Source: Acidobacteriaceae bacterium TAA 166 | Lineage (GTDB): Bacteria > Acidobacteriota > Terriglobia > Terriglobales > Acidobacteriaceae | DNA: 64,000 nt | Assembly: GCA_000421065.1 (NCBI GenBank) | Contig: ATWD01000001.1 | Location: 1,170,001 to 1,234,000, forward strand | Reading direction: 5' to 3' | In this document: piece after piece, positions 1-60,603 of the stretch | Numbering within the stretch: the stretch's first letter is position 1 | How the letters are laid out: the number at the start of each line of letters is the position of its first letter | Program-made: the position numbers and the translations under genes | The notes under the pieces: generated by a model | The model's input: only the letters and a program-made list of their open reading frames with translations | Told to the model about the DNA's origin: nothing | Database searches by the model: none

Positions 1-205
1 AAAACTGGATTTACCCCAATAAACACGCGGCTAAAACTTCTTCAAGAATTCTCTAGATTCATCTGAATCGCCCCTTATGCATCGGAGAATCTGCTTGTTT
101 TCCCTTTCTCCGGCTTGCAATCTTTACGGAGAATTTGCGGAGCCCTCGAGCCGAAGCCCTCTGGGGCGTATCGACAAATTCAAATCTGCAATTTCTGGGA
201 GGAAG
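1..205. other. Left-edge intergenic stretch, no gene seen
   Basis: No reading frame here has coding character and no RNA gene was recognised. The first 100 bases are noticeably more AT-rich than the rest of the window. It may be the end or upstream region of a gene lying left of the window, but nothing in the sequence decides that. Confidence 0.4.
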
Positions 206-393
206 ATGGCCTGCCGGCCGGGTCCATTGCGCGTGGAGCGGTCACTTCGTGACGGGTATTTGCCCTTCGGGGTGAGGCTCCCATTGGTCGCTTGCGAAGA
301 TGTTTGCGCCGAACCGAAGGGAGACCCACGGCGTAGCCGGTGCACGCGTCACGAAGTGACCGCCCCATGCGCAGTGGGCCCGCGCGGCAGCGC
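206..393. repeat. Nested palindromic intergenic element, copy 1 (full length)
   Basis: Left outer arm GCCTGCCGGCCGGGTCCATT, middle arm with GCGGTCACTTCGTGACG, inner arm with GCTCCCATTGGTCGC, then the mirrored arms ending in the alternative outer arm (GCCCGCGCGGCAGCGC). It lies 24 bp beyond the stop codon of the M48 peptidase gene. The two outer arms are of different sub-types (GCCTGCCGGCCGG on the left, GCGCTGCCGCGCG on the right), so the outermost stem is imperfect. Confidence 0.85.
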
Positions 394-416
394 TCTTCTT
401 TATTTGTGGATCCACC

Positions 417-1919
417 CTAACGCACCCGAAAGCTCTGCGCCATCGCCGTAAAAAGTGGCTTCAGAGCCGAATAATCCGCCTCGGGCGAGACAAAGACGAT
501 GTAGCTGACGGCGCCGTCGGGCCGGGCCACCGTGACCAGAAGATCGCGTTCCGTGGAGGCTGCCCCTCCCGTCGCGACGACCGGCGAGCTTCCCTTAAGC
601 TCTACTGCCCTGGCCATCTGCCCATTCACCGTCATGGAGCTCGCCGCCCCGATCGCCTGCATTCCACCGTTTTGGCCGCCCAGTTGCCCGGCGATCGCGG
701 TGGTCGCCTGCGTCAGCGAGTTGGCGTCGTTGACCGGGCTCTGAAAACGCGCTCCATCGACGATCGCTCCATAGGCGATCCCCGCCTGACTGGCCCCGTT
801 TACCGGAACGAAGGCTACGCTGCCGTTCTGGGCCTCGCCCTTCTGCCAGCTCTCGGGATAGCTGATCGAAAAGGTCTTGCCGTTGTAGAAGATCCTGCGG
901 TCGTCCAGGCCCAGGGCATCTTTACTCAGCCGAGCCGCTGCTCCGGCGGACTGTTGCTGCGACGCCCCATTTCCTCCGCTGGCCGCAACCGGAATTACCT
1001 GCGCCGGACCTCCGGGGAGCAGGGCATACTGCCCGGTCTTGCGCCATCCTCCAGCCGCAATCTCCTTGCCGTTGTAGGCTTTTTCCTTCTCGGCTAGCGC
1101 CCGGGCCTGGGTGAACTCGGGCGTCGTCACCCGTGGGTTCGATCGCTTGGGAAAGGTTGCGATCTCGGCAGCGATGTACTCCATGCGGTTGCCGGGATTG
1201 GGGTGGTCGCTGAAGAGCTGTGCTCCACCCTCTCCGTACTTTGCCTGAATGGTCTCGAAGAACTGAGGCAGGCCGCGAGGATCGTATCCCGCGTCATAAA
1301 GAATGGACGCGCCCAGAAGGTCGGCCTGCTTCTCGTAATCCCGCGACATGCGCAGGAATCCGAGCCCGGTCGCCATCCCGATGCCCTGCGTGGCCAGCGA
1401 TCCCAGCGCGCCGTTGCCGAGGGCGATCGCCGCCCCGATCTGCCCGAGGGCCGCCCAGGTCCCTACCTTCTGCTGCTTGGTCATATTGCAGGTAGAGTGA
1501 CGCATGACCACGTGCGAGAGCTCGTGCGCCATCACGCCGGCCAGCTGAGCCTCGGTCTCGGCCGCTCGAATGGCGCCGATGTTGACGAACATGGCTCCGC
1601 CCGGAAGGGCGAAGGCGTTGATCTCGTCGCTGGCCACCACATGGAAGTTGAACGGCCAGCGATAACCCGGCGTCACCGCCACCAGCCGCTCGCCGACCTG
1701 CCGCACGTACTGCGACAGGGGAGAGCTATCCGGGAGCACTGGCATCTGCTTGAAGATCTCGCCGGCATACTTCGCGCCCTCGGCCTGCTCCTGCTGCACG
1801 GTGAAGGCATTTTTGCAGGGCGGGGGAACCTGAAACCGTGCCCAGGCCGACTGGGTCGCTCCCCCAACGACCAGCCCCACTGCCAGAATCCAACTTGCCA
1901 CACATCCACATCGCAACAT
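417..1919 (-). CDS. Secreted M48 family metalloprotease
   Basis: A 500-residue zinc peptidase of the M48 (HtpX/BepA-like) family, probably acting in the periplasm on misfolded outer-membrane proteins. Residues 1-28 form a signal peptide. The zinc motif HELSH is at 132-136 and the third ligand lies in SRDYEKQAD near 192-200 (Glu196). Residues about 335-500 form a separate C-terminal domain after a low-complexity Gly/Ala/Gln linker, resembling the DUF1795/PsbP-like fold; that fold assignment is inference. The start at 1919 is preceded by a purine-rich AGGGGTGGAG site. It is transcribed alone, with a palindromic element just past its stop. Family is certain; substrate is not shown. Confidence 0.9.
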   Translation of the reverse strand: MLRCGCVASWILAVGLVVGGATQSAWARFQVPPPCKNAFTVQQEQAEGAKYAGEIFKQMPVLPDSSPLSQYVRQVGERLVAVTPGYRWPFNFHVVASDEINAFALPGGAMFVNIGAIRAAETEAQLAGVMAHELSHVVMRHSTCNMTKQQKVGTWAALGQIGAAIALGNGALGSLATQGIGMATGLGFLRMSRDYEKQADLLGASILYDAGYDPRGLPQFFETIQAKYGEGGAQLFSDHPNPGNRMEYIAAEIATFPKRSNPRVTTPEFTQARALAEKEKAYNGKEIAAGGWRKTGQYALLPGGPAQVIPVAASGGNGASQQQSAGAAARLSKDALGLDDRRIFYNGKTFSISYPESWQKGEAQNGSVAFVPVNGASQAGIAYGAIVDGARFQSPVNDANSLTQATTAIAGQLGGQNGGMQAIGAASSMTVNGQMARAVELKGSSPVVATGGAASTERDLLVTVARPDGAVSYIVFVSPEADYSALKPLFTAMAQSFRVR

Positions 1920-2716: not shown

Positions 2717-2905
2717 AGCGCTGCCGCGTGGGCCCACTGCGCGTGGGCGGTCACTTCGTGACGCGTATACCGGCTTCGCCGTGGGCCTCCCGCTGGTTGG
2801 CTAAGATTCTTCGCAAGCGACCAACGGGAGCCTCGACCCGAAGGGGATATACGTGTCACGAAGTGACCGCCCCGTGCGCAGTGGACCCGGGCCGGCAAGG
2901 CCAGC
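2717..2905. repeat. Nested palindromic intergenic element, copy 2 (full length)
   Basis: Both outer arms are mainly of the GCGCTGCCGCG / GGCCAGCGC type. Middle arms GCGGTCACTTCGTGACGCG and CGTGTCACGAAGTGACCGCC, and inner arms CTCCCGCTGGTTGG / CCAACGGGAGCCTC, are clear. This copy lies between two divergently transcribed genes (marC and ilvE), so it sits between their promoters rather than behind a stop codon. Confidence 0.85.
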
Positions 2906-4317: not shown

Positions 4318-4512
4318 GCGATGGCCTGCCGGCCGGGCCCACTGCGCGTGGAGCGGTCACTTCGTGACGTGGGTACTCCCTTCGGGGTGGGGCTCCCGTT
4401 GGTCGCTGGCGAAGATGTTTGCGCCGAACCGAAGGGAGGCCCCGGGCGTTGCCGACATACGCGTCACGAAGTGACCGCCCCACGCGCAGTGGGCCCGGCC
4501 GGCAGGCCAATC
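4318..4512. repeat. Nested palindromic intergenic element, copy 3 (full length)
   Basis: Both outer arms are of the GCCTGCCGGCCGGGCCCACT type and pair almost perfectly with AGTGGGCCCGGCCGGCAGGC. Middle and inner arms are intact. It fills the gap between two convergent genes (hypothetical 4034-4285 and the SDR gene ending at 4529). Confidence 0.9.
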
Positions 4513-4528
4513 TCTTTGCCGATCCAGC

Positions 4529-5299
4529 CTAAGAGTGACGGTGGAAGACCGTCGAGTTGGCCTGGTCAATCGATGTCAGCACCACGGTATGGATGTTGAC
4601 ATGAACCGGCCTCGAAGCCGCCCATACAATCGCATCCGCAATATCCTCCGGCTGCAGCGGCGTAATGTTCTGGTACACCTTCGCCGCCCGCTCACTGTCG
4701 CCTCGAAAGCGGACCTCGCTGAACGCCGTCTCCACCATCCCCGGATCGATCGAGGTCACCCGCACCGGAGTTCCCATCAGATCGATCTTGAGCCCCTCGC
4801 TGATCGACTTCTCCGCCGCCTTGGTGGCGCAATAGACAGCGCCGTTGGCATAGGTCGTGTAAGCCGCCGTCGATCCCAGGCTGATCACATGGCCCCGGCC
4901 GCGCTCCACCATGCCCGGCACCACGGCGCGGGTTACGTAGAGCAGGCCCTTTACGTTGGTGTCGATCATCTCTTCCCAGTTCAGGGGATCGTCCTCGTAG
5001 ACCTTGGTGAGCCCGCGGCTGAGACCAGCGTTGTTCACCAGCACATCGATCGCGCTCCACTCCGCGGGAAGCGCGGCGATCGCAGCCTCGACCGCGGCGC
5101 GATCCTGCACGTCCAGCAGAAAGCTGTGAACCGCGGGGGCTCCGGCCTGCTTCAGATCCTCGATCACCTGCTCAAGGCGGTCCTCACGCCGGGCGCAGAC
5201 GACCACCCGAGCTCCTTCTTTTGCAAACGCCAGCGCCGTCGCCCGGCCAATGCCCGAGCTCGCTCCCGTTACCAGAACAATCTTTCCGCTAAGGTTCAT
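4529..5299 (-). CDS. Short-chain dehydrogenase/reductase, YdfG-like
   Basis: A 256-residue cytosolic NAD(P)-dependent oxidoreductase. The cofactor motif TGASSGIG is at 11-18, NNAG at 89-92, catalytic Ser143 and the Tyr156-x3-Lys160 pair (YCATK) are present. Overall the sequence resembles the YdfG subgroup, which oxidises serine, allo-threonine and other 3-hydroxy acids and also reduces malonic semialdehyde; the exact substrate is inference. The start at 5299 (MNLSGKIVLVTG) is preceded by AAGAGAAGC and fits the family length; the frame is open further up to 5353 but that adds non-conserved residues. It is separated from the upstream ompA-like gene by that gene's terminator. Confidence 0.88.
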   Translation of the reverse strand: MNLSGKIVLVTGASSGIGRATALAFAKEGARVVVCARREDRLEQVIEDLKQAGAPAVHSFLLDVQDRAAVEAAIAALPAEWSAIDVLVNNAGLSRGLTKVYEDDPLNWEEMIDTNVKGLLYVTRAVVPGMVERGRGHVISLGSTAAYTTYANGAVYCATKAAEKSISEGLKIDLMGTPVRVTSIDPGMVETAFSEVRFRGDSERAAKVYQNITPLQPEDIADAIVWAASRPVHVNIHTVVLTSIDQANSTVFHRHS

Positions 5300-11181: not shown

Positions 11182-11280
11182 CTGCGCTGCGCGCGGGCCC
11201 ACTGCGCTTGTCCACCCCACAAACAGGTCTTCGTTTGTGGGGTGGACAAGCGTAGTGGGCCCGGTCGGCAGGCCATCGCC
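11182..11280. repeat. Palindromic intergenic element, copy 4 (outer arms plus hairpin module)
   Basis: Outer arms GCGCGGGCCCACTGCGC and GCGTAGTGGGCCCGGTCGGC directly enclose a hairpin module (TCCACCCCACAAAC pairing with GTTTGTGGGGTGGA around AGGTCTTC). The middle and inner palindromes of the full-length copies are absent. It lies between convergent genes and stops 10 bases before the stop codon of the lyase gene. Confidence 0.85.
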
Positions 11281-11289
11281 TTTCCTTCT

Positions 11290-15365: not shown

Positions 15366-15400
15366 GGCGCTGCCGCGCGGGCCCACTGCGCGGCAGCGCC
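15366..15400. repeat. Palindromic intergenic element, copy 5 (outer arms only)
   Basis: A perfect 13-bp inverted repeat, GGCGCTGCCGCGC and GCGCGGCAGCGCC, around GGGCCCACT. This is the minimal form of the family. Its last base is the first base of the stop codon of the minus-strand gene that ends at 15400. Confidence 0.85.
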
Positions 15401-20126: not shown

Positions 20127-20315
20127 GATGGCCTGTCGGCCGGGCCCACTCCGCGTGGTGCGCCCACGTCGTGGGGGTGTACTCCCTTCGGGGTGGGGCT
20201 CCCGTTGGTCGCTTGCATAAATCTTTACACCGACCAGCGGGAGGCCCACGCCAAAGGCGGTATACGCGTCACGAAGTGACCGCCCCACGCGGAGTGGGCC
20301 CGCGCGGCAGGTTGC
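20127..20315. repeat. Nested palindromic intergenic element, copy 6 (full length)
   Basis: Outer arms GCCTGTCGGCCGGGCCCACT and AGTGGGCCCGCGCGGCAG, with inner arms CTCCCGTTGGTCGC / CGACCAGCGGGAGGCC. The left middle arm has decayed (CGCCCACGTCGTGG in place of CGGTCACTTCGTGACG), while the right one (GTCACGAAGTGACCGCCCC) is intact, so the stem is broken on one side. It starts 26 bases past the stop of the Ig-repeat gene. Confidence 0.85.
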
Positions 20316-25648: not shown

Positions 25649-25831
25649 GCCTGCCTGACGGGCCCACTGCGCGTGGGGCGATCACTTTCGTGACGCGTAT
25701 ACCGCCTTCGGCGTGGGCCTCCCACTGGTCGGCGCAAATATCTTTCCAACGACCAATGGGAGCCTCACCCCAAAGGGCAAATATACGTCACGATGTGACC
25801 GCTGCCCGCGTAGGGCGCCCGCGCGGGAGCG
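25649..25831. repeat. Nested palindromic intergenic element, copy 9 (full length)
   Basis: Outer arms GCCTGCCTGACGGGCCCACT and a decayed right arm (GTAGGGCGCCCGCGCGGGAGCGC), with middle arms ATCACTTTCGTGACGCGTAT / ATACGTCACGATGTGACCG and inner arms CTCCCACTGGTCG / CGACCAATGGGAGCCTC. It lies between two genes on the same strand, 12 bases past the stop of the FecR-like gene and before efp. Confidence 0.8.
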
Positions 25832-25974
25832 CCTCGCCTCTCATCTGAGCCCTGTTACGGAAAACTGCTGCGATACAATGATTGAGGTTTCGGGGACCGG
25901 ACGCTCGGATTGGGCGCCTCGCCGGACAAAACTCACAGCACAAGTTCAACTCAACCAAAGTCAGAGGTTTTTCA

Positions 25975-27520: not shown

Positions 27521-27533
27521 AATGGTTCTCACA

Positions 27534-27563
27534 GAGGCCGGCGCTCTTCATGCCGGCTTTTGT
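27534..27563 (+). terminator. Terminator of acyP-apt
   Basis: GAGGCCGGC and GCCGGC pair around GCTCTTCAT, followed by TTTTGTT, 14 bases past the apt stop. Confidence 0.7.
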
Positions 27564-27650
27564 TATAGGTGTGTTGCATCGGGGTCGATCGGGCCGATCG
27601 ATGCATCGAATGGATATCCACCCCAAAAAGAGCGAATTGGAGAAGATGAA

Positions 27651-28694
27651 ATGGTTGCAACAAAGGGTTATGCTGTGCAGTCCGCAACGACGCCCGCGGC
27701 TCCGTTTGCCTACGAACATCGCGAGCCGGGCGAGAAGGATGTTTTGATCGACATTCGGTTCTGCGGAATTTGCCACTCGGATATTCACCAGGCACGCAAT
27801 GAGTGGGGAAATTCGATGTACCCCATGGTGCCTGGGCATGAGATCGTCGGTACCGTCGCCCGCGTGGGCTCGAAGGTGAAGAAGTTCAAGGTGGGCGATA
27901 TCGCCGCAGTCGGCTGTATGGTCGATTCGTGTCGAGAGTGCGCTTCGTGCAAGGCGGGCGAGGAGCAGTACTGCGATCGCGGAGAGACGCTGTGGACCTA
28001 CAACGGCCGCGACAAGCAGGGGAACCTGACCTTCGGCGGCTATGGCGACCACATTGTGGTGGATGAGGCGTTTGTGGTGTCGGTCCCGAAGAATCTCGAT
28101 CCCGCCGCCGCCGCTCCTCTGCTGTGCGCTGGGATCACGACGTACTCTCCCCTGAAGCACTGGGGCGCGGGACCGGGCAAGAAGATCGGCGTGGTGGGCC
28201 TGGGCGGTCTGGGTCACATGGCGCTGAAGTTTTCGCACGCCTTCGGAGCGAAGACGGTGCAGTTCACGACCTCGGCCAACAAGGTCGAGGATGCGAAGAA
28301 GCTGGGAGCCGATGAGGTGATCCTTACCAAGGATCCCGACTGGCACGTGAAGCATGAGGGAACCTTCGACTTTATCCTGGACTGCGTCTCCGCGCCGCAT
28401 GACGTTACGCCTTATATGGCGCTGCTGAAGCGGGACAGCACGATGTGCACGGTGGGGATTCCGGAGTCTCCGATTCAGCTGCCGGCGTTTGCGGTGGCGG
28501 CCGGGCGCAAGAGCTTCTCGGGCTCGGCGATCGGCGGGATCAACGAGACCCAGGAGATGCTGGACTTCTGCGGCGAGCACAACATCGTCTCCGATATCGA
28601 GATGACGAGCTTCGACAAGGTGAACGAGGCCTGGGAGCGCGTGATCAAGGGCGATGTGAAGTATCGCTTCGTGCTCGACCTGAAGACCCTGTAG
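27651..28694 (+). CDS. Zinc-dependent NAD(P) alcohol dehydrogenase
   Basis: A 347-residue cytosolic medium-chain dehydrogenase of the cinnamyl alcohol dehydrogenase / YahK group, usually NADP-dependent aldehyde reductases. Catalytic zinc ligands are Cys38 (CGICHSDIH) and His62-Glu63 (PGHE); structural zinc is bound by the Cys cluster CRECASCKAGEEQYC. The Rossmann motif GVVGLGGLG is near 175. GGAGAAG precedes ATG 27651. The frame is open to 27522 but that segment is not conserved. Transcribed alone; a strong terminator follows. The natural substrate cannot be read from the sequence. Confidence 0.9.
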   Translation: MVATKGYAVQSATTPAAPFAYEHREPGEKDVLIDIRFCGICHSDIHQARNEWGNSMYPMVPGHEIVGTVARVGSKVKKFKVGDIAAVGCMVDSCRECASCKAGEEQYCDRGETLWTYNGRDKQGNLTFGGYGDHIVVDEAFVVSVPKNLDPAAAAPLLCAGITTYSPLKHWGAGPGKKIGVVGLGGLGHMALKFSHAFGAKTVQFTTSANKVEDAKKLGADEVILTKDPDWHVKHEGTFDFILDCVSAPHDVTPYMALLKRDSTMCTVGIPESPIQLPAFAVAAGRKSFSGSAIGGINETQEMLDFCGEHNIVSDIEMTSFDKVNEAWERVIKGDVKYRFVLDLKTL

Positions 28695-28769: not shown

Positions 28770-28977
28770 CAAAGGCGATGGCCTGCCGGCCGGGCCCACT
28801 GCGCGTGGGGCGGTCACTTCGTGACGCGTATTTGCCCTTCGGGGTGGGTGCTCCCGTTGGTCGCTTGCAAAGATTCTCGCGCCGACCAACGGGAGGCCCA
28901 CGGCGAAGCCGACATACGCGTCACGAAGTGACCGCCCCACGCGCAGTGGGCCCGGCCGGCAGGCCATTGTCTTTGCT
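28770..28977. repeat. Nested palindromic intergenic element, copy 10 (best full-length copy)
   Basis: The most regular copy. Outer arms GCCTGCCGGCCGGGCCCACT / AGTGGGCCCGGCCGGCAGGC, middle arms GGGCGGTCACTTCGTGACGC / GCGTCACGAAGTGACCGCCC, inner arms CTCCCGTTGGTCGC / CGACCAACGGGAGGCC, and a 20-base axis. Extra flanks GCAAAGGCGATG and CATTGTCTTTGC also pair loosely. It lies between convergent genes and ends one base before the stop codon of the lactonase gene. Confidence 0.92.
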
Positions 28978-30171
28978 CTAAGCGAAGAGGGTGAAGAGCG
29001 GAGAGTCCACGGGCGCGGTCTGGACGGGACCTGCGAGCTGGCCGGTGCCAAGGTCGCGGCGAAAGACGGTGACCGAGGCCGAGTCCTGGTTGCCGCAGAG
29101 AATCCACTGGAAGGTGGGATCGAAGGTGAAGTGGCGCGGAGTTCTGCCGCCGCAGGGGATGCGCTGGACCTCTTTGAGTGCACCGCCTTGGCCGATGGCG
29201 AAGACGACGAGGGTATCTTCGCCGCGATTGCTGGCGTAGAGGAAGCGGCCGTCGTTCGAGATCATGACCTCGGCCGCGGTGTTTTTGTCGGCGGGAAAAC
29301 CGGGAGCGATGGTCTTGACGGTGGTGTTGGTGTTGATCAGAAGACCCTGCGGGTGTTCGAGCGAGTGGGTGGTGGTCCAGAGAAAATGGTCGAGGGTGGA
29401 GTCGAGCTCGTTGATGAGGTAGACCCAGCGCCCATTGGGGTGAAAGGCGATGTGGCGGGGCCCGGAGCCGGCGCGGAGGTTGGTCAGCAACGGGCTCGAT
29501 GGCGTGAGCTTGGCCGTGACAGGGTCGATGCGGAAGACCGAGATGGCGTCGTTGCCGAGATCGTTGACGATGAGAAAGCGGTCGTCGGGGGAGACGAAGA
29601 CGGAGTGCGGATGCGGGCCGTCCTGACGGACGGGAACGGGGCCGTGGTGGCCGAACTGCGCATCTTTGTAGTTGAGGGTATCGACCGGCTGCGAGAGAGA
29701 GCCGTCGCTCTCGATCCGGTAGGAGGAGACGGTTCCGCCGAAGTAGTTGGCGACGAAGGCGGCGCGACCGGTGGAATCGACGGAGACGTAGGCAGGGCCT
29801 GCGCCGGCGGAGGTGACCTTGGCTTTTTCGGTGAGCAGGCCGCTGCGAATGTCGAGGTCAAAGGTAGTCATCGTAGCCGTGGGATCGGGGATGGCGTTGA
29901 CGGCGTAGAGCGATCGGCGGCCGGCGCGCGCCGGCGAGAGAGCCATATAGGACGGGCGCAGAGTCTCAGCGGCGAGGATAGGGACGGAGAGCTGGCCGGA
30001 CTGGGGATTGAAGGTGCTGTGAAAGATGCCCTTGCTGATGCCCCTGGCGGTATCGGTTCCGATGAAGACGTGGACTGGGGCGGGAGGCGCGGGCTGCTTC
30101 TTGCGGAAGGGAGACTGCGCCGAGGCCATGTAGGCCGGGAGCAGAGCGAGGAATCGCCGGCGCGAGATCAT
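28978..30171 (-). CDS. Lactonase family protein (6-phosphogluconolactonase-type beta-propeller)
   Basis: A 397-residue exported protein of the Pgl/YbhE seven-bladed propeller family. The N-terminus MISRRRFLALLPAYMASAQ looks like a twin-arginine signal, so it is probably periplasmic, unlike cytosolic YbhE. Family blocks include SSYRIESDGSL, QDGPHPHSVFVSPDDRFLIV, RAGSGPRHIAFHPNGRWVYL, AAEVMISNDGRFLYASNRGE and RTPRHFTFDPTFQWI. The likely reaction is hydrolysis of sugar lactones; the exact substrate is open. ATG 30171 is 5 bases from the stop of the gene upstream, so both are one operon. Confidence 0.85.
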   Translation of the reverse strand: MISRRRFLALLPAYMASAQSPFRKKQPAPPAPVHVFIGTDTARGISKGIFHSTFNPQSGQLSVPILAAETLRPSYMALSPARAGRRSLYAVNAIPDPTATMTTFDLDIRSGLLTEKAKVTSAGAGPAYVSVDSTGRAAFVANYFGGTVSSYRIESDGSLSQPVDTLNYKDAQFGHHGPVPVRQDGPHPHSVFVSPDDRFLIVNDLGNDAISVFRIDPVTAKLTPSSPLLTNLRAGSGPRHIAFHPNGRWVYLINELDSTLDHFLWTTTHSLEHPQGLLINTNTTVKTIAPGFPADKNTAAEVMISNDGRFLYASNRGEDTLVVFAIGQGGALKEVQRIPCGGRTPRHFTFDPTFQWILCGNQDSASVTVFRRDLGTGQLAGPVQTAPVDSPLFTLFA

Positions 30172-30175
30172 GGAG

Positions 30176-30607
30176 CTAGGCGGGTTCTCCGGGTAGGTGG
30201 ATCGCCATATCGTCCTCGGCACGGACGTTCTCGTTGATGAGAGGGAGGCTGGGAAGATTCAGGGTATTGCCAGCCTCGTGGACGACCTTGTCGGCGAGCT
30301 CGAGGACCTCGTCGACGGTCATGGTATACATCTCGCGGCCGTTGTCGTAGCCGGACTCGATGGCCCGCTTGAGGTAAAGGCCGGCGGTCTGGGCGGCGAG
30401 ATAGTCGGTGATGACGTGGCCGGTCTTGCGCTTCAGCTCGACCCAAGCCAGGTTGGGCAGGGCGATCCATACGGGACGCTGGTTGACCGAGAAACGGATG
30501 TCGGTCGCGTCGGCATGGCGGGTGGCGATGGCGACGATGGTTCCCTTCCACTGGCAGTGGAGCTGTTCGCCGGTCCAGCGATCGGTCACTTTGAAGTCTT
30601 CATACAT
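30176..30607 (-). CDS. Hypothetical protein upstream of the lactonase
   Basis: A 143-residue soluble protein I do not recognise. It begins MYEDFKVTDRWTGEQLHCQW, has a conserved-looking block RFSVNQRPVWIALPNLAWVE and a helical C-terminal half (DYLAAQTAGLYLKRAIESGY, YTMTVDEVLELADKVVHEAG). No signal peptide or membrane segment. Its stop lies 5 bases before the lactonase ATG, so they are cotranscribed, but one is cytosolic and the other exported. The frame is open to 30646; ATG 30607 gives the better N-terminus. Confidence 0.7.
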   Translation of the reverse strand: MYEDFKVTDRWTGEQLHCQWKGTIVAIATRHADATDIRFSVNQRPVWIALPNLAWVELKRKTGHVITDYLAAQTAGLYLKRAIESGYDNGREMYTMTVDEVLELADKVVHEAGNTLNLPSLPLINENVRAEDDMAIHLPGEPA

Positions 30608-30670
30608 GATGGCTTCTAGGCTAATCGACCACAGGGGGATGGGCAAGGCGACGCGGAAGAATCTGTGACC

Positions 30671-30712
30671 AGACAGGCGCTGCCGCGCATAGTGGGCCCG
30701 GCCGGCAGGCCA
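30671..30712. repeat. Palindromic intergenic element, copy 11 (outer arms only)
   Basis: Left arm AGACAGGCGCTGCCGCGC, right arm AGTGGGCCCGGCCGGCAGGC: the two outer-arm sub-types are combined in one short copy. It lies between two minus-strand genes, 25 bases before the glmM stop codon. Confidence 0.75.
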
Positions 30713-30736
30713 ATCTCTTTCCTCAGTCGATCCAGC

Positions 30737-32143
30737 CTAGATTCCCAGCTCGACGCGGATCGCCTCGGCGATGGTGTCGGCGTGGCGGCGCATGGCGGGC
30801 TCGGACTCGGCCTCGATCATGACGCGGGCGAGGGCCTCGGTGCCGGAGTAGCGGATGACGACGCGGCCGGTGTCGGCGAGCTCGCGCTCGGCCTCGGCGA
30901 TGGCGCGGGCGACGGCGGGAATGGCATCGAGGGGGCGCTTCTCGCGGACCTTGACGTTGACGATGACCTGGGGGAAGACCTTGAGGTCGCTGACGAGCTC
31001 GCCGAGGGACTTGCCGCTGCGGTGGACGATGTCGAGCAGAAGGAGCGCGGTGAGCAGGCCGTCACCGGTGGTGGAGCGGCCGGTGAAGATGATGTGGCCG
31101 GACTGTTCGCCGCCGAGCGCGGCCTGGGTGGCGAGCATCTGCTCGAGGACGTACTTGTCGCCGACGGCGGCGCGAAGCATCTGGATTCCGCTGCGCTTCA
31201 ACGCTGCTTCGAGGCCCATGTTGGACATGGTGGTGGCGACAACAGTGGAGTTGGTGAGCAGGCCGCGGGCCTGGAGGTCGCGGGCGGCGAGCAGGAGGAC
31301 GGCGTCGCCGTTGACAACGTTTCCATCCTCGTCGGCGAAGAGGGCGCGGTCGGCGTCGCCGTCGAAGGTGATGCCGAGCTGCGCTTTGTGATGGCGGACC
31401 TGGGCGGCGACGATTTCGGGGTGGAGGGCACCGCACTGCTCGTTGATGTTGCGGCCATCGGGAGAGGCGTGGGTGAAGAGAATCTCGGTGCCGCCTAACT
31501 GGGCGAAGAGCTCGGGGGCGACGGCGGAGGCGGCTCCGTTGGCGCAGTCGATGACGATGCGGCGGTTATCGAGGGAGAGGCCGGAGACGGCGGCGAGGAG
31601 GAAACGGATGTAGTCGGCGCGGTCGGATTCGTTGACGGGGGGGTTATTCTGCGACCCCACCTTCGCCTGAGTCGAAGATGGGGCACCCGATTGAGAAGAT
31701 GTGCCCGTTTCTTTTGAGGGGCTGCTGGTGCTCTTGAGGTGGTGGAAGATCTCGGCTTCGATGGCGAGCTCGGTCGCGTCGGGGAGCTTGTAGCCGTCGG
31801 GGCCGAAGACCTTGATGCCATTGTCCTGCCAGGGATTGTGGGAGGCGGAGATGACGATTCCTGCGGCGAATCTGTGGGTATGGGTGAGGTAGGCGATGGC
31901 CGGGGTGGTGATGACGCCGGCGTTCTCGACCGAGGCTCCTCCGGCGACGAGGCCCGCGGTGAGCTGGGCGGTGAGGGCGGGGCCGGACTCGCGGGTGTCC
32001 ATGCCGAGCAGGACGCGGGGGGTGGGTGAGGTCTTCGACAACGTATGGGCGAGAGCGAGACCGATGGCGTGGACGGTGGAGGCGTCGAGGGGGTACTGCC
32101 CGGCGACGGAGCGGATGCCGTCGGTTCCAAAGAGCTTCTTCAT
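30737..32143 (-). CDS. glmM: Phosphoglucosamine mutase
   Basis: A 468-residue cytosolic enzyme converting glucosamine-6-phosphate to glucosamine-1-phosphate for peptidoglycan and LPS. MKKLFGTDGIRSVAG at the start, the phosphoserine loop with Ser101 (ISASHNP), the metal loop FDGDADRALFAD and the C-terminal RYSGTEALARVMIE are all present. Residues about 138-172 are an extra Ser/Thr/Pro/Gln-rich insertion absent from the family, and its core (GAPSSTQAKVG) is encoded by a palindromic element. The ATG overlaps the xseA stop by 4 bases. Essential in most bacteria, so the insertion must be tolerated. Confidence 0.93.
   Translation of the reverse strand: MKKLFGTDGIRSVAGQYPLDASTVHAIGLALAHTLSKTSPTPRVLLGMDTRESGPALTAQLTAGLVAGGASVENAGVITTPAIAYLTHTHRFAAGIVISASHNPWQDNGIKVFGPDGYKLPDATELAIEAEIFHHLKSTSSPSKETGTSSQSGAPSSTQAKVGSQNNPPVNESDRADYIRFLLAAVSGLSLDNRRIVIDCANGAASAVAPELFAQLGGTEILFTHASPDGRNINEQCGALHPEIVAAQVRHHKAQLGITFDGDADRALFADEDGNVVNGDAVLLLAARDLQARGLLTNSTVVATTMSNMGLEAALKRSGIQMLRAAVGDKYVLEQMLATQAALGGEQSGHIIFTGRSTTGDGLLTALLLLDIVHRSGKSLGELVSDLKVFPQVIVNVKVREKRPLDAIPAVARAIAEAERELADTGRVVIRYSGTEALARVMIEAESEPAMRRHADTIAEAIRVELGI
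31653..31688. repeat. In-frame palindromic insertion inside glmM
   Basis: On the coding strand CCCCATCTTCG pairs with CGAAGGTGGGG (one G-T wobble) around ACTCAGG, flanked by GGTG and TC. It encodes GAPSSTQAKVG. The same element, read in the same frame and giving the same peptide pattern, is in polA at 39857-39898. Confidence 0.8.
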
Positions 32144-33673: not shown

Positions 33674-33713
33674 CAGGCGCTGCCGCGCGAGCCCACTGCG
33701 CGTGGAGCGCCTG
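33674..33713. repeat. Palindromic intergenic element, copy 12 (outer arms only)
   Basis: CAGGCGCT and AGCGCCTG pair at the ends around the family core GCCGCGCGAGCCCACTGCGC. The last 6 bases of flank (AAAACAGG / CCTGTCTTT) also pair. It lies between two minus-strand genes. Confidence 0.75.
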
Positions 33714-33729
33714 TCTTTCCTGAAAGGTC

Positions 33730-41657: not shown

Positions 41658-41814
41658 ACAGGCGCTGCCGCGCGGGCCCACTACGCGTGGAGCGGTCACT
41701 TCGTGACGCGTGTTGGGCCTTCGGCGTGGGCCTCTCGCTGGTCGGCACGAGAATTTGTATAAGCGGCCAACGGGAGCCTCACCCAGAAGGGAGTACGCAC
41801 GCCACGAAGTGGGC
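41658..41814. repeat. Nested palindromic intergenic element, copy 13 (right end truncated)
   Basis: Left outer arm AGGCGCTGCCGCGCGGGCCC, middle arm GCGGTCACTTCGTGACGCG, inner arms CTCTCGCTGGTCGG / CGGCCAACGGGAGCCTC. The right half stops inside the middle arm (CACGAAGTGG) and is followed at once by the recG stop codon. It lies between recG and polA, both minus strand. Confidence 0.8.
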
Positions 41815-47606: not shown

Positions 47607-48743
47607 ATGCATCGATACGACCTAGAATGGAAGGCAGTGCGCGTCGATGCGTTTCATTTCGATCTGCCTGAGGAGCTGATCGCTCAGGCTCCTCCGCCGG
47701 TACGCGGATTGAGCCGCATGCTGGTGCTCGACCGTCGCAGACGCGAGCATCGCGACAGCTTCTTTCGCGATCTTCCGGAGCTGCTCTCCCCGGGCGATCT
47801 TCTGGTGCTGAACGACAGCCGGGTGATTCCGGCGCGACTCTACGCGACGCGAGCGAGGGGTGCGAGTACGCAGGCCAGCTCGCCTGATCCTACAGGCCGA
47901 ATTGAGGTGCTGTTGACGCAGCAGTTGGGCCCGCAGGAGTGGACGGCACTGGTTCGGCCGGGACGGAAGGTGCAGGTTGGGGAGCGGCTGCAGTTTGCGG
48001 CTGCGGGAGACCCGACACCGCTGCTTGAGGCGGAGGTGATCGAGGCCGGAGAGTTCGGCGAGCGGACACTGCGTTTTGCTCCGACGACGGAGTTTCTGGG
48101 CATTCTCGACCGCATCGGGCACATGCCTCTGCCGCCGTATATCCATCGCGAGGACACCGCCGAAGACCGCGACCGTTATCAGACGGTCTTCTCGCATGAG
48201 CCGGGATCGGCGGCGGCTCCGACGGCGGGACTGCACTTCACGCCGGAGATTCTGGAGCAGATTCGTGCGCGCGGGGTGGAGATTGCAACGGTCACACTGC
48301 ATGTGGGGCTGGGAACCTTTCAGCCCGTGCGAGCGGAGACCGTCGAGGAGATTCATTTGCACTCCGAGCGCTATACGCTGCCGGAGGCGACGGCCGAGGC
48401 GCTCAATCGGGCTCTGCGCAAAAGGCGGCGCATCATCGCTGCCGGAACGACGACGACACGAACGCTGGAGCACTGCGCGCATATTGCCTCGAGCGATGCC
48501 TTCGAGCCGCATGCGGGGCTGACGCTGCATCCGCACTCGGGGGAGACGAGCATCTTTCTGCATCCGGGGTATGAGTTTCGCGTCATCAGCGGGCTGCTGA
48601 CGAACTTTCATCTTCCGCAGTCGACGCTGCTGATGCTGGTGAGCGCCTTTGCGGGCCGGGAGACGGTGCTGGCGGCATATGCGCATGCGGTGCGGGAGAG
48701 GTATCGGTTCTTCTCTTATGGGGATTGCATGTTGATTCTTTGA
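47607..48743 (+). CDS. queA: S-adenosylmethionine:tRNA ribosyltransferase-isomerase
   Basis: A 378-residue cytosolic enzyme of queuosine synthesis, adding ribosyl from AdoMet to preQ1 in tRNA to make epoxyqueuosine. [15 protein letters not shown] near the start, [38 protein letters not shown]-like block, [14 protein letters not shown]-like stretch and TTTTRTLE are family signatures. The conserved protein may start at a GTG at 47637 ([14 protein letters not shown]); the ATG at 47607 lies in the repeat flank. Its stop codon TGA is made by the next palindromic element. No tgt gene is adjacent. Confidence 0.93.
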
Positions 48744-48960
48744 TGGCCTGCCGGGCCCACTGCGCGGTCCTTCGCGGACGGCGGGTGAGCCTTGGGCACG
48801 GGCCTCCCATTGGTCGGCGCGAGAATCTTCGCAAGCGACCAACGGGAGCCCCATCCCAAAGGGCAAATACGCGTCACGAAGTGACCGCCCATACCGGGGG
48901 CCCCACAAACAGGTCTTCGTTTGTGGGGTGGAAGAGCGCAGTGGGTCCGCACGGCAGCGA
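48741..48960. repeat. Nested palindromic intergenic element, copy 15 (composite, longest)
   Basis: TGATGGCCTGCCGGGCCCAC at the left end supplies the queA stop codon (TGA at 48741-48743). Inner arms CTCCCATTGGTCGG / CGACCAACGGGAGCCCC are intact, the right middle arm GCGTCACGAAGTGACCGCCC is intact, and between it and the right outer arm lies the hairpin module ATACCGGGGGCCCCACAAAC / GTTTGTGGGGTGG. The left middle arm is replaced by a short hairpin GTCCTTCGCGGAC. It lies between convergent genes queA and glgC. Confidence 0.85.
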
Positions 48961-51185: not shown

Positions 51186-51719
51186 ATGGATTCGGTACGC
51201 TTCGGCCGCGCGCTAGGAGCAGGAGCGCGAGCGGCCGCCAAGACGCTGGCAACGGCCGCAGATGCAGCGGCGGCACCTCATCCGTCTTCTGCGCGGAGGC
51301 CCGAGGCACAGAGACCTTCGCCTTCACCGCAACCATCCTCTCAGCAATTCAGGAGTTCTTCCTCTGCCGCCTCGCGACCGGTTGCGACGGTAACCGAACA
51401 GGTGACGCGCACGGCGACCCAGGCGGTCAGGGCAACCGAAGGGGTAGCTCGCGGTGGCAAACGATTCGGCGAGTCGGTATGGCGGCCGTTCGTTCGGCTC
51501 TCGGGGGTGCTGTGGCTCGAGTTTACCGGCGTCTTCTTCGGGATCTTCGCTCTCTTTGCCGGAACAGGAGCATGGAAGCTGCGCGGCAGCCTGCATGAGA
51601 CGGCAACGAATCACGAGGACCACATACACTTTGTGATGGCAGCGCTGATGGCTGTGGTGTTCGCTTACTTCTGCATCAGCAGCTTTGTGCGGGCGGGCCG
51701 CCGGGAGCGGGCCCGCTAG
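51186..51719 (+). CDS. Hypothetical membrane protein with disordered N-terminus
   Basis: A 177-residue protein I do not recognise. Residues about 1-110 are basic, Ala/Ser/Pro-rich and probably disordered, ending in TEGVARGGKRFGESVWRPFV. Two membrane helices follow (LSGVLWLEFTGVFFGIFALF and FVMAALMAVVFAYFCISSFV), separated by a short loop with HETATNHEDH. The C-terminus is basic (RAGRRERAR). The architecture suggests an inner-membrane anchor with a long cytosolic tail. A palindromic element follows 43 bases past its stop. Confidence 0.75.
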   Translation: MDSVRFGRALGAGARAAAKTLATAADAAAAPHPSSARRPEAQRPSPSPQPSSQQFRSSSSAASRPVATVTEQVTRTATQAVRATEGVARGGKRFGESVWRPFVRLSGVLWLEFTGVFFGIFALFAGTGAWKLRGSLHETATNHEDHIHFVMAALMAVVFAYFCISSFVRAGRRERAR

Positions 51720-51762
51720 GTTGTAGCGTCCTCTTCTGATCCGCGTTTTTTGAAGTAGAAGA

Positions 51763-51903
51763 GCTGGCCTGCCGGCCGGGCCCACTGCGCTCGGCCACCC
51801 CACAAACGAAGACCTGTTTGTGGGGACCCCGGTATAAGCGGTCACTTCGTGACGCGTGTACCCCTTTCGGGGTGGCTGCTCCCGTTGGTCGCTTGCATAA
51901 ATT
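51763..51903. repeat. Nested palindromic intergenic element, copy 16 (left half plus hairpin module)
   Basis: Outer arm GGCCTGCCGGCCGGGCCCAC, then the hairpin module CACCCCACAAAC / GTTTGTGGGG plus ACCCCGGTATAA, then middle arm GCGGTCACTTCGTGACGCG and inner arm GCTCCCGTTGGTCGC. The right half is missing: the sequence ends at the axis. Read on the other strand it matches the right half of copy 15, which carries the same module at the same place. Confidence 0.85.
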
Positions 51904-51936
51904 TGTGCTCCGCAGCGCTCTTCTCCACTAATCGCT

Positions 51937-60572: not shown

Positions 60573-60603
60573 AGCTTGTGGCCTGCCGGCCGGGCCACAA
60601 GCC
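60573..60603. repeat. Palindromic intergenic element, copy 17 (minimal)
   Basis: GGCTTGTGGCCTGCCGGCCG-like stem: GCTTGTGGCC and GGCCACAAGC pair perfectly around TGCCGGCCG. The outer arm of the family is present in its shortest form, 26 bases past the tRNA. It could also act as a tRNA terminator hairpin. Confidence 0.6.

Follow-up and report, generated by a model that had tools for sequence, protein, structure and literature searches.

The DNA analysed here (the window) is a 64,000-nucleotide stretch, C1:1170001-1234000, of the genome of Acidobacteriaceae bacterium TAA 166, which consists of 6,136,933 bases in three contigs. At 28770-28977 of the window, a nested palindromic element is located between two genes; the TAG stop codon of the downstream, convergent gene is 12 nt outside the right terminal hairpin of the element, and an apparent terminator hairpin with a T-run, recognized by eye, lies between the upstream gene and the element. 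Alignment of the copies revealed two forms of the outer arms, type A (GGCC-TGCC-GGCC) and type B (GCGC-TGCC-GCGC), each of which is a hairpin by itself. The features of this locus, followed by the other copies in the window, are listed below; lines without a sign have no strand assigned.

27522..28694 (+), upstream gene, zinc-binding alcohol dehydrogenase, PF08240/PF00107
28778..28967, copy under study, core of nine hairpins with type A arms on both outer sides
28780..28791 (+), left terminal hairpin H1, GGCC-TGCC-GGCC (sequence, covariation)
28794..28811 (+), left H2, CCCAC-TGCGC-GTGGG, with one bulge (sequence, covariation)
28813..28825 (+), left H3, GTCAC-TTC-GTGAC (sequence, covariation)
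28834..28844 (+), left H4, CCC-TTCG-GGG (by eye)
28851..28895, central hairpin H5, CTCCCGTTGGTCG ... CGACCAACGGGAG (sequence)
28902..28910 (-), right H4, GGC-GAA-GCC on the + strand, unlike left H4 (sequence; types counted)
28920..28932 (-), right H3 (sequence)
28934..28951 (-), right H2 (sequence)
28954..28965 (-), right terminal H1 (sequence)
28978..30222 (-), convergent gene, lactonase-like beta-propeller, PF10282
162..419, copy of full length bearing the outer inverted ends, core 206-394
2717..2900, core copy (HMM)
4321..4531, core copy 4321-4510 plus a decayed outer end to 4531 (HMM)
11194..11286, short copy, outer arms enclosing a different inner hairpin, CCCCACAAAC...GTTTGTGGGG
15366..15400, minimal copy consisting of just the two outer arms
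20128..20311, core copy (HMM)
25649..25833, core copy (HMM)
30618..30737, short copy, its outer ends decayed left and right
33675..33715, minimal copy (HMM)
41661..41812, copy with its right end truncated (HMM)
48742..48957, composite copy, core plus CCCCACAAAC hairpin module
51717..51911, composite copy whose left outer end, at 51717, is decayed
60574..60602, minimal copy, perfect hairpin GCTTGTGGCC...GGCCACAAGC

All levels of the palindrome that a preliminary description had reported for the copy at 28770-28977 are indeed present, but its same-type outer arms make it the less usual form: among 60 copies with both ends typed, the outer arms were different in 44, A/A in 14 and B/B in two. This heterotypy (44/60, Fisher p 3.9e-5) would be explained by two TIR-bearing ends per full-length copy; by eye, end type A or B was not tied to the gene side or to inner asymmetry. 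The further copies that had been placed at 206, 2717, 4318, 20127, 25649, 41658 and 48741 were found at 206, 2717, 4321, 20128, 25649, 41661 and 48744, respectively. Copies are many, as had been stated, but the estimate of about 17 in the window is to be lowered to 13 HMM loci, or 14-16 when remnants are included. Short remnants beyond the 13 are located at ~60574, at 48936, where the remnant adjoins the 48741 copy as a fusion, and at 47624, where one arm is left together with a decayed end.

Conserved structure of the arms

The whole copy at 28770-28977 folds as one long rod, with -204.2 kcal/mol compared to -100.8 kcal/mol (sd 5.5) for shuffled sequences, none of 200 being as low. It had been envisaged that the RNA could adopt either one long rod or several small hairpins, of which comparison of the copies backed only the latter. 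The rod may form, because it is the lowest-energy fold of the whole copy, but its upkeep was unsupported by this comparison: over the first 46 arm columns, with the centre outside, left-right arm identity was 0.772 vs 0.772 in shuffled pairs for the own copies (n=45), and 0.801 vs 0.802 for other copies (n=35). Arms that are not conserved as pairs had been named beforehand as an argument against selection on the palindrome, and this is what whole-arm identity revealed for the rod. For H3 alone in the own copies, same-copy identity was 0.732 vs 0.681, a value reached by 25 of 500 shuffles.

Covariation was examined on 193 of 227 arms that had the H1 and H2 loops in register, 182 of them distinct. 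In the 182 distinct arms, the two variable pairs of H1 were 93-95% paired (46-64% in shuffles) and the three variable pairs of H2 were 90-97% paired (54-83%), whereas the pairs of H3 covaried less (78-96% vs 75-76%), in part owing to a second type of H3 that is not in register. The relatives have a third H1 form, GTCC-TGCC-GGAC, and the H2 stems CCCAC/GTGGG, CGCCC/GGGCG, CCTCC/GGAGG and CCGCC/GGCGG. An alignment of 64 of the 141 well-pairing arms out of the 227 gave 111 doubly changed cells vs 25.5 and a pairing figure of 98.4%, which is inflated because the arms were pre-chosen for good pairing; the 182-arm test is the fairer one. At orthologous sites of Edaphobacter lichenicola, 38 stem pairs were changed in 10 arm pairs (one out of register but counted): 14 were compensated double changes, four were changes with G-U, 11 were single mismatches, and nine were double mismatches that are attributable to a swapped H3 type or to the one misregistered row. 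The single 52-nt arms of the window copy folded no better than shuffles (z 0.02, -0.34), so that energy alone is silent on the small hairpins. Judged from this comparison of copies, the conserved structure is a string of small hairpins in each arm, and not the rod.

Stems with one mismatch had 20 G-U and 17 A-C pairs, or 12 and 5 in H2 alone, and the H2 loop is T-N-C-G-C with a free second base, which we take to resemble the UNCG loops of RNA. The hairpins could also be functionless, and kept tidy by template switching (quasi-palindrome correction) and gene conversion. Compensated changes with nothing else altered (e.g., L150/L173), the different versions found at one site, and the similar G-U and A-C numbers are all in line with such a process, but the tight stop-codon position and the arrival at new sites, both addressed below, are left unexplained by it, and we judge it highly improbable.

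Abundance, forms and spread

An exact search of the 6.14 Mb genome for the hairpin GGTCACTTCGTGAC returned 331 matches (176 forward, 155 reverse), with 0 and 0 in the reversed control. Since an intact copy has two such hairpins, the genome contains ~165 or more core copies. Their distribution is uneven, with 65 loci in C1:1050001-1574000 and none of these past ~1470 kb. In G000:C1 ~1457000-1574000 (L077-L082), the element ceases where the GC content drops from ~0.61 to 0.53-0.58, and the exact H3 hairpin is also absent from ~1456 to 1864 kb (forward matches); the element-free stretch starting at ~1456-1457 kb looks like a large acquired region.

The copies form a size series of ~35 bp (two outer arms), ~155, 180-184 and 223-225 bp between arms, and the largest form is ~310 bp including the outer ends (L215). 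For another inner module, CCCCACAAAC-GAAGACCT-GTTTGTGGGG, a genome search with up to three mismatches gave 93 matches (control 0); the window copies at 11194, 48742 and 51717 have this module within or next to the same outer arms.

The element is not confined to the window. When a covariance model of the arms was run on relatives, as had been suggested, matches were found in 38 of 62 Edaphobacter/Granulicella genomes, TAA 166 included, with an arm count of at least 99 in 12 of the 38; some of the 24 genomes that lacked a match are incomplete. In a phylum sample of 247 genomes, 11 of 14 from the genus matched, no genome among the 12 from the family's other genera did so, and the remaining 221 yielded 13 weak matches (best E 3.8e-6, the E-values being rough), which we read as chance. 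Named carriers include Edaphobacter lichenicola strains, Granulicella aggregans M8UP14 and other Granulicella isolates; these loci were picked by an exact 19-mer that includes H3, and the element was found in 66 of 69 among the matches listed, while the Kiritimatiellae, Pseudobdellovibrionaceae and Streptomyces loci with a 19-mer match were without it. At syntenic sites of E. lichenicola strains, in aligned pieces that are 83-92% identical, the element may be present in another version, be truncated, or be missing altogether. At one site (L121 vs L136, L136:2119-2208), the relative has another hairpin array (GGGGCTGAAGCCCC, GCAGGGCTAAAGCCCTGC) instead. In stretches of G002 and G028 (L262-L276), some copies lack H1 and start at H2, several of them apparently right behind a stop codon, as judged by eye.

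Outer inverted ends

A subset of copies, including that at 162-419, is bounded by the outer inverted ends TAGGGCGTATCGAC, which are often flanked by TA; the ends of the 162..419 copy, read inward, are TGGGGCGTATCGAC on the left and TAGGGTGGATCCAC on the right. The end sequence AGGGCGTATCGACAAATT occurs at 40 places in the own genome at up to two mismatches and at none in the reversed control, and most of the loci read have an arm ~52 nt (type A) or ~40 nt (type B) further on. An outer end was located within 75 nt of 7, 10 and 14 of 96 arms (0.41 Mb) at 2, 3 and 4 mismatches, compared to a mean of 0.0, 0.3 and 2.7 for shuffled end motifs, and at 5 mismatches the numbers were 29 and 13.8. TA was seen by eye on either side of six full-length copies, and others have one side changed; the candidate TIR-bounded intervals numbered 23, some of which are chance pairings. 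TA is the target used by the MITEs NEMIS/Correia and RUP. At L231:1501-1620 there is a short element that has these same inverted ends but lacks the hairpin core.

Conservation declines outward from the core, and inverted symmetry of the flanks beyond it was at chance level at positions 1-29, with z 2.7 at position 30 of 30. At the mismatch limits used, the element-rich relatives had no outer ends, save one exact 14-mer in G031, and no common flank was apparent by eye outside the core in stretches of G002, G028 and G079; support for the MITE route is thus limited to one lineage. Over all copies, target-site duplications were absent in a test that covers only those longer than TA, and no clean empty site was found at the sites compared. 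The MITE combination of TIR and no coding capacity was found in a subset of copies only, and the BIME features, i.e., a mosaic of short palindromes in alternating orientation, extragenic and in many copies, were found as well.

Position at gene ends and stop codons

By crude gene calls, 40 of the 65 loci are between tandem genes, 16 between convergent and four between divergent genes, and five are inside a predicted ORF. Among the 28 copies in this 524-kb stretch that had both ends recognized, a long-ORF stop was located within 80 nt of the hairpin on both sides in 16, on one side in 10 and on neither in two; for random positions in the own genome the figure was 21.8% per side. In relatives, 77 of 114 ends were within 80 nt of a long-ORF stop, compared to 21.7% of random positions, and 39 of these 77 lie 4-9 nt from the stop.

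The upstream ORF has a stop codon composed of TA and the first base of the TIR end in 8 of 19 cases in the own genome and in 2 of 16 other cases; nine of these ten stop codons are TAG and one is TAA. An insertion into a stop codon at its TA would do no harm, since TAG is restored by the G with which the end begins; the pattern is evident in the sequences, and the mechanism may be surmised from it. Five proteins with end-made stops were compared with family models, a GntR-type regulator and a TolB-like protein among them. Signal peptidase I matches its NCBIfam model to 161 of 162 and RmlC to 175 of 176, which indicates that at least these two genes were not cut short; in RibD of another genus, the family match extends to position 307 of 343. 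Beside copies without TIR, stop codon usage was similar to the background.

It is to be noted that REPs of E. coli near stop codons affect translation. The primary role of the element could be that of a selected 3' RNA structure, such as bidirectional end protection, a terminator or a ribosome brake, its mobility being incidental. Its place right behind stops on both sides, the local compensatory changes, the presumably UNCG-like H2 loop and the persistence of the core where the outer ends are gone all argue in this direction. Against it, G-U pairs show no overall excess over A-C, 24 of 62 genus genomes, some of them incomplete, gave no match, and sites are variably filled between strains. Terminator-like sites, present at 2 of 39 gene ends with the element and at 17 of 161 others, weigh on neither side. 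Such a primary function is, on balance, unlikely.

Search for a mobilizing enzyme

A linked RAYT had been suggested as the mobilizing enzyme, and was sought in the own genome, around the Y1 genes of relatives, and by correlation; no link was found. No Y1 transposase was detected in the own genome or in the element-rich G002, G014 and G028. Y1 genes occur in 32 of 41 genus genomes, but over the 41 genomes their number was unrelated to that of arms (rho -0.10, p 0.54, with counts of at least 99 entered as 99), and none of 28 Y1 places in relatives, which comprise 30 of the 92 Y1 matches (20 stretches, two of which overlap, and 10 short loci), was flanked by the element, the nearest copy being ~4 kb away. 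The GTAG tag was absent from the hairpin foot, where the end profiles show an A-rich AAAG or a stop codon, and CGTC was found only within the H3 stem. A RAYT partner is unsupported by these results. A REP/BIME system that was once spread by a RAYT (a Y1 HUH transposase), the enzyme being lost later, would account for the minimal copies of 35-41 bp, the inverted terminal hairpins, the heterotypic ends and the gene-end site, which resemble REP dimers as portrayed in PMC3733652; the Y1 genes of the genus, and the TIR-flanked Y1 transposases (TIRYT) that this paper records in Acidobacteria (T. saanensis, K. versatilis, A. capsulatum and G. mallensis), are also in its favor. Given the negative results above, we accord this history little credence.

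An autonomous partner was also sought in the own stretches read, where no TIR pair lies 340-3500 bp apart, and no transposase was found between such ends in the stretches read. The TIR pair of L281 was rejected as an autonomous element, since it encloses ordinary coding DNA; two other pairs bound intervals of 502 bp (L279) and 832 bp (L286).

Same ends with other hairpins

At up to one mismatch, the 17-base end was found in 2 of 61 genus genomes, namely the own genome and G021, the latter having two elements with the same ends and other hairpins. The exact 14-mer end is present in 12 of 347 phylum genomes, including the own, with 11 copies in G351, five in G312, two in G218 and one in each of eight others, several of the single copies being in coding-like DNA. 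G351 and G312 belong to another genus of the same family, and their five two-ended elements, 231-379 bp in length, contain arrays of short hairpins such as GCGGGCTTCAGCCCGC. One of these elements (L285:1501-1731) encloses a match to the Rfam motif Acido-Lenti-1 at gathering score (L285:1607-1651), while a second match, in L300, is outside its element. A table in PMC2864571 classifies Acido-Lenti-1 as probably RNA and probably not cis-regulatory; its location within a TIR-bounded element suggests that part of this orphan RNA family may be mobile-element DNA.

We tentatively propose, as a possibility that falls short of probable, a 'mobile 3' UTR' superfamily of Acidobacteriaceae, in which conserved ends (TA followed by GGGCGTATCGAC) would bring lineage-specific covarying arrays onto stop codons, rebuild TAG with their own first base, and give genes, often two convergent ones at a time, a ready structured 3' end that leaves the protein undamaged.

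Relation to described repeat families

The Rfam search of the window detected only a tRNA, leaving the element without a match, and in L001, L215 and L131 no Acido-Lenti-1 was found up to E 0.1; matches to MIR6234, BSnc120 and Bp1_781 were far under the gathering scores and were discarded. Plasmid and phage records had no core match, plasmid records had no match for the element of another genus, and no viral contig had the core 19-mer or the 20-base end. The earlier remark that no named family with this sequence was known to its author is borne out by Rfam and by phage and plasmid records, and in titles and abstracts of the open-access literature (REP/MITE/RAYT; Acidobacteria, Granulicella, Edaphobacter) the element is undescribed. 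PMC12306157 gives apparently 5,307 putative REPs in Granulicella aggregans, under loose criteria, and PMC3174227 reports many short repeats in Solibacter; the passages considered name no family like the element.

According to PMC3733652, REP dimers and BIMEs (GTAG and CGTC families) are dispersed gene-end palindromes that occur as opposite-orientation pairs and heterodimers, fold singly or together as one stem, and are scarce in divergent intergenic regions, in all of which the element resembles them. It differs in having no GTAG tag, CGTC in the stem only, no RAYT link, up to nine hairpins and a length of ~185-310 bp. Like MITEs, it is non-coding, with inverted ends, TA flanks and ~100-310 bp, but the end sequence is another, the interior is a covarying hairpin array, and no partner transposase was found. 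The TIRYT/TIRtron repeats, compared by their description in PMC3733652, also have repeated inverted ends in Acidobacteria but are tied to Y1 transposases. Acido-Lenti-1 (RF01687; PMC2864571) is likewise an acidobacterial hairpin motif, one copy of which lies within a same-ended element, although the hairpins of the window do not match its model.

Discussion

Overall, the preliminary interpretation is supported in part: a 'REP/BIME-like or MITE-like' architecture is what was found, i.e., dispersed, palindromic, modular, at gene ends, and with TIR and TA flanks in a subset. With modest confidence, we favor the view that the element is a MITE-like, BIME-like mobile hairpin cassette that genes tolerate as a 3' end and perhaps make use of. 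In this model, a non-coding, non-autonomous repeat of about nine small hairpins (H1-H5 and the inverted set) would reside between gene ends. In one lineage, it would travel as a MITE by means of the ends TAGGGCGTATCGAC and TA, the ends being seen in a subset of copies, and be mobilized in trans by a putative TA-targeting transposase rather than a RAYT. Insertion would take place on or just after stop codons, where the copies are indeed positioned, at the TA of TAA or TAG. After insertion, the outer ends would erode while the hairpins persist, and hairpins may be exchanged between copies, as the mosaic sites suggest. The gene-end position, the compensated hairpins and a core that outlasts the ends together suggest a structured 3' end, and the hairpins may serve one or both neighbors in this capacity, as a terminator or as protection of the mRNA end, or may merely be tolerated.

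The element thus offers a natural series of forms from 35 to ~310 bp, and there are sister strains with different versions at the same site. In REP biology, the hairpin repeat usually goes together with the RAYT enzyme; here the two are separated, and one copy of an orphan Rfam motif, Acido-Lenti-1, is now placed in a TIR-bounded element. Lastly, the element provides a direct test of whether it is selection or replication error that keeps bacterial hairpins perfect.
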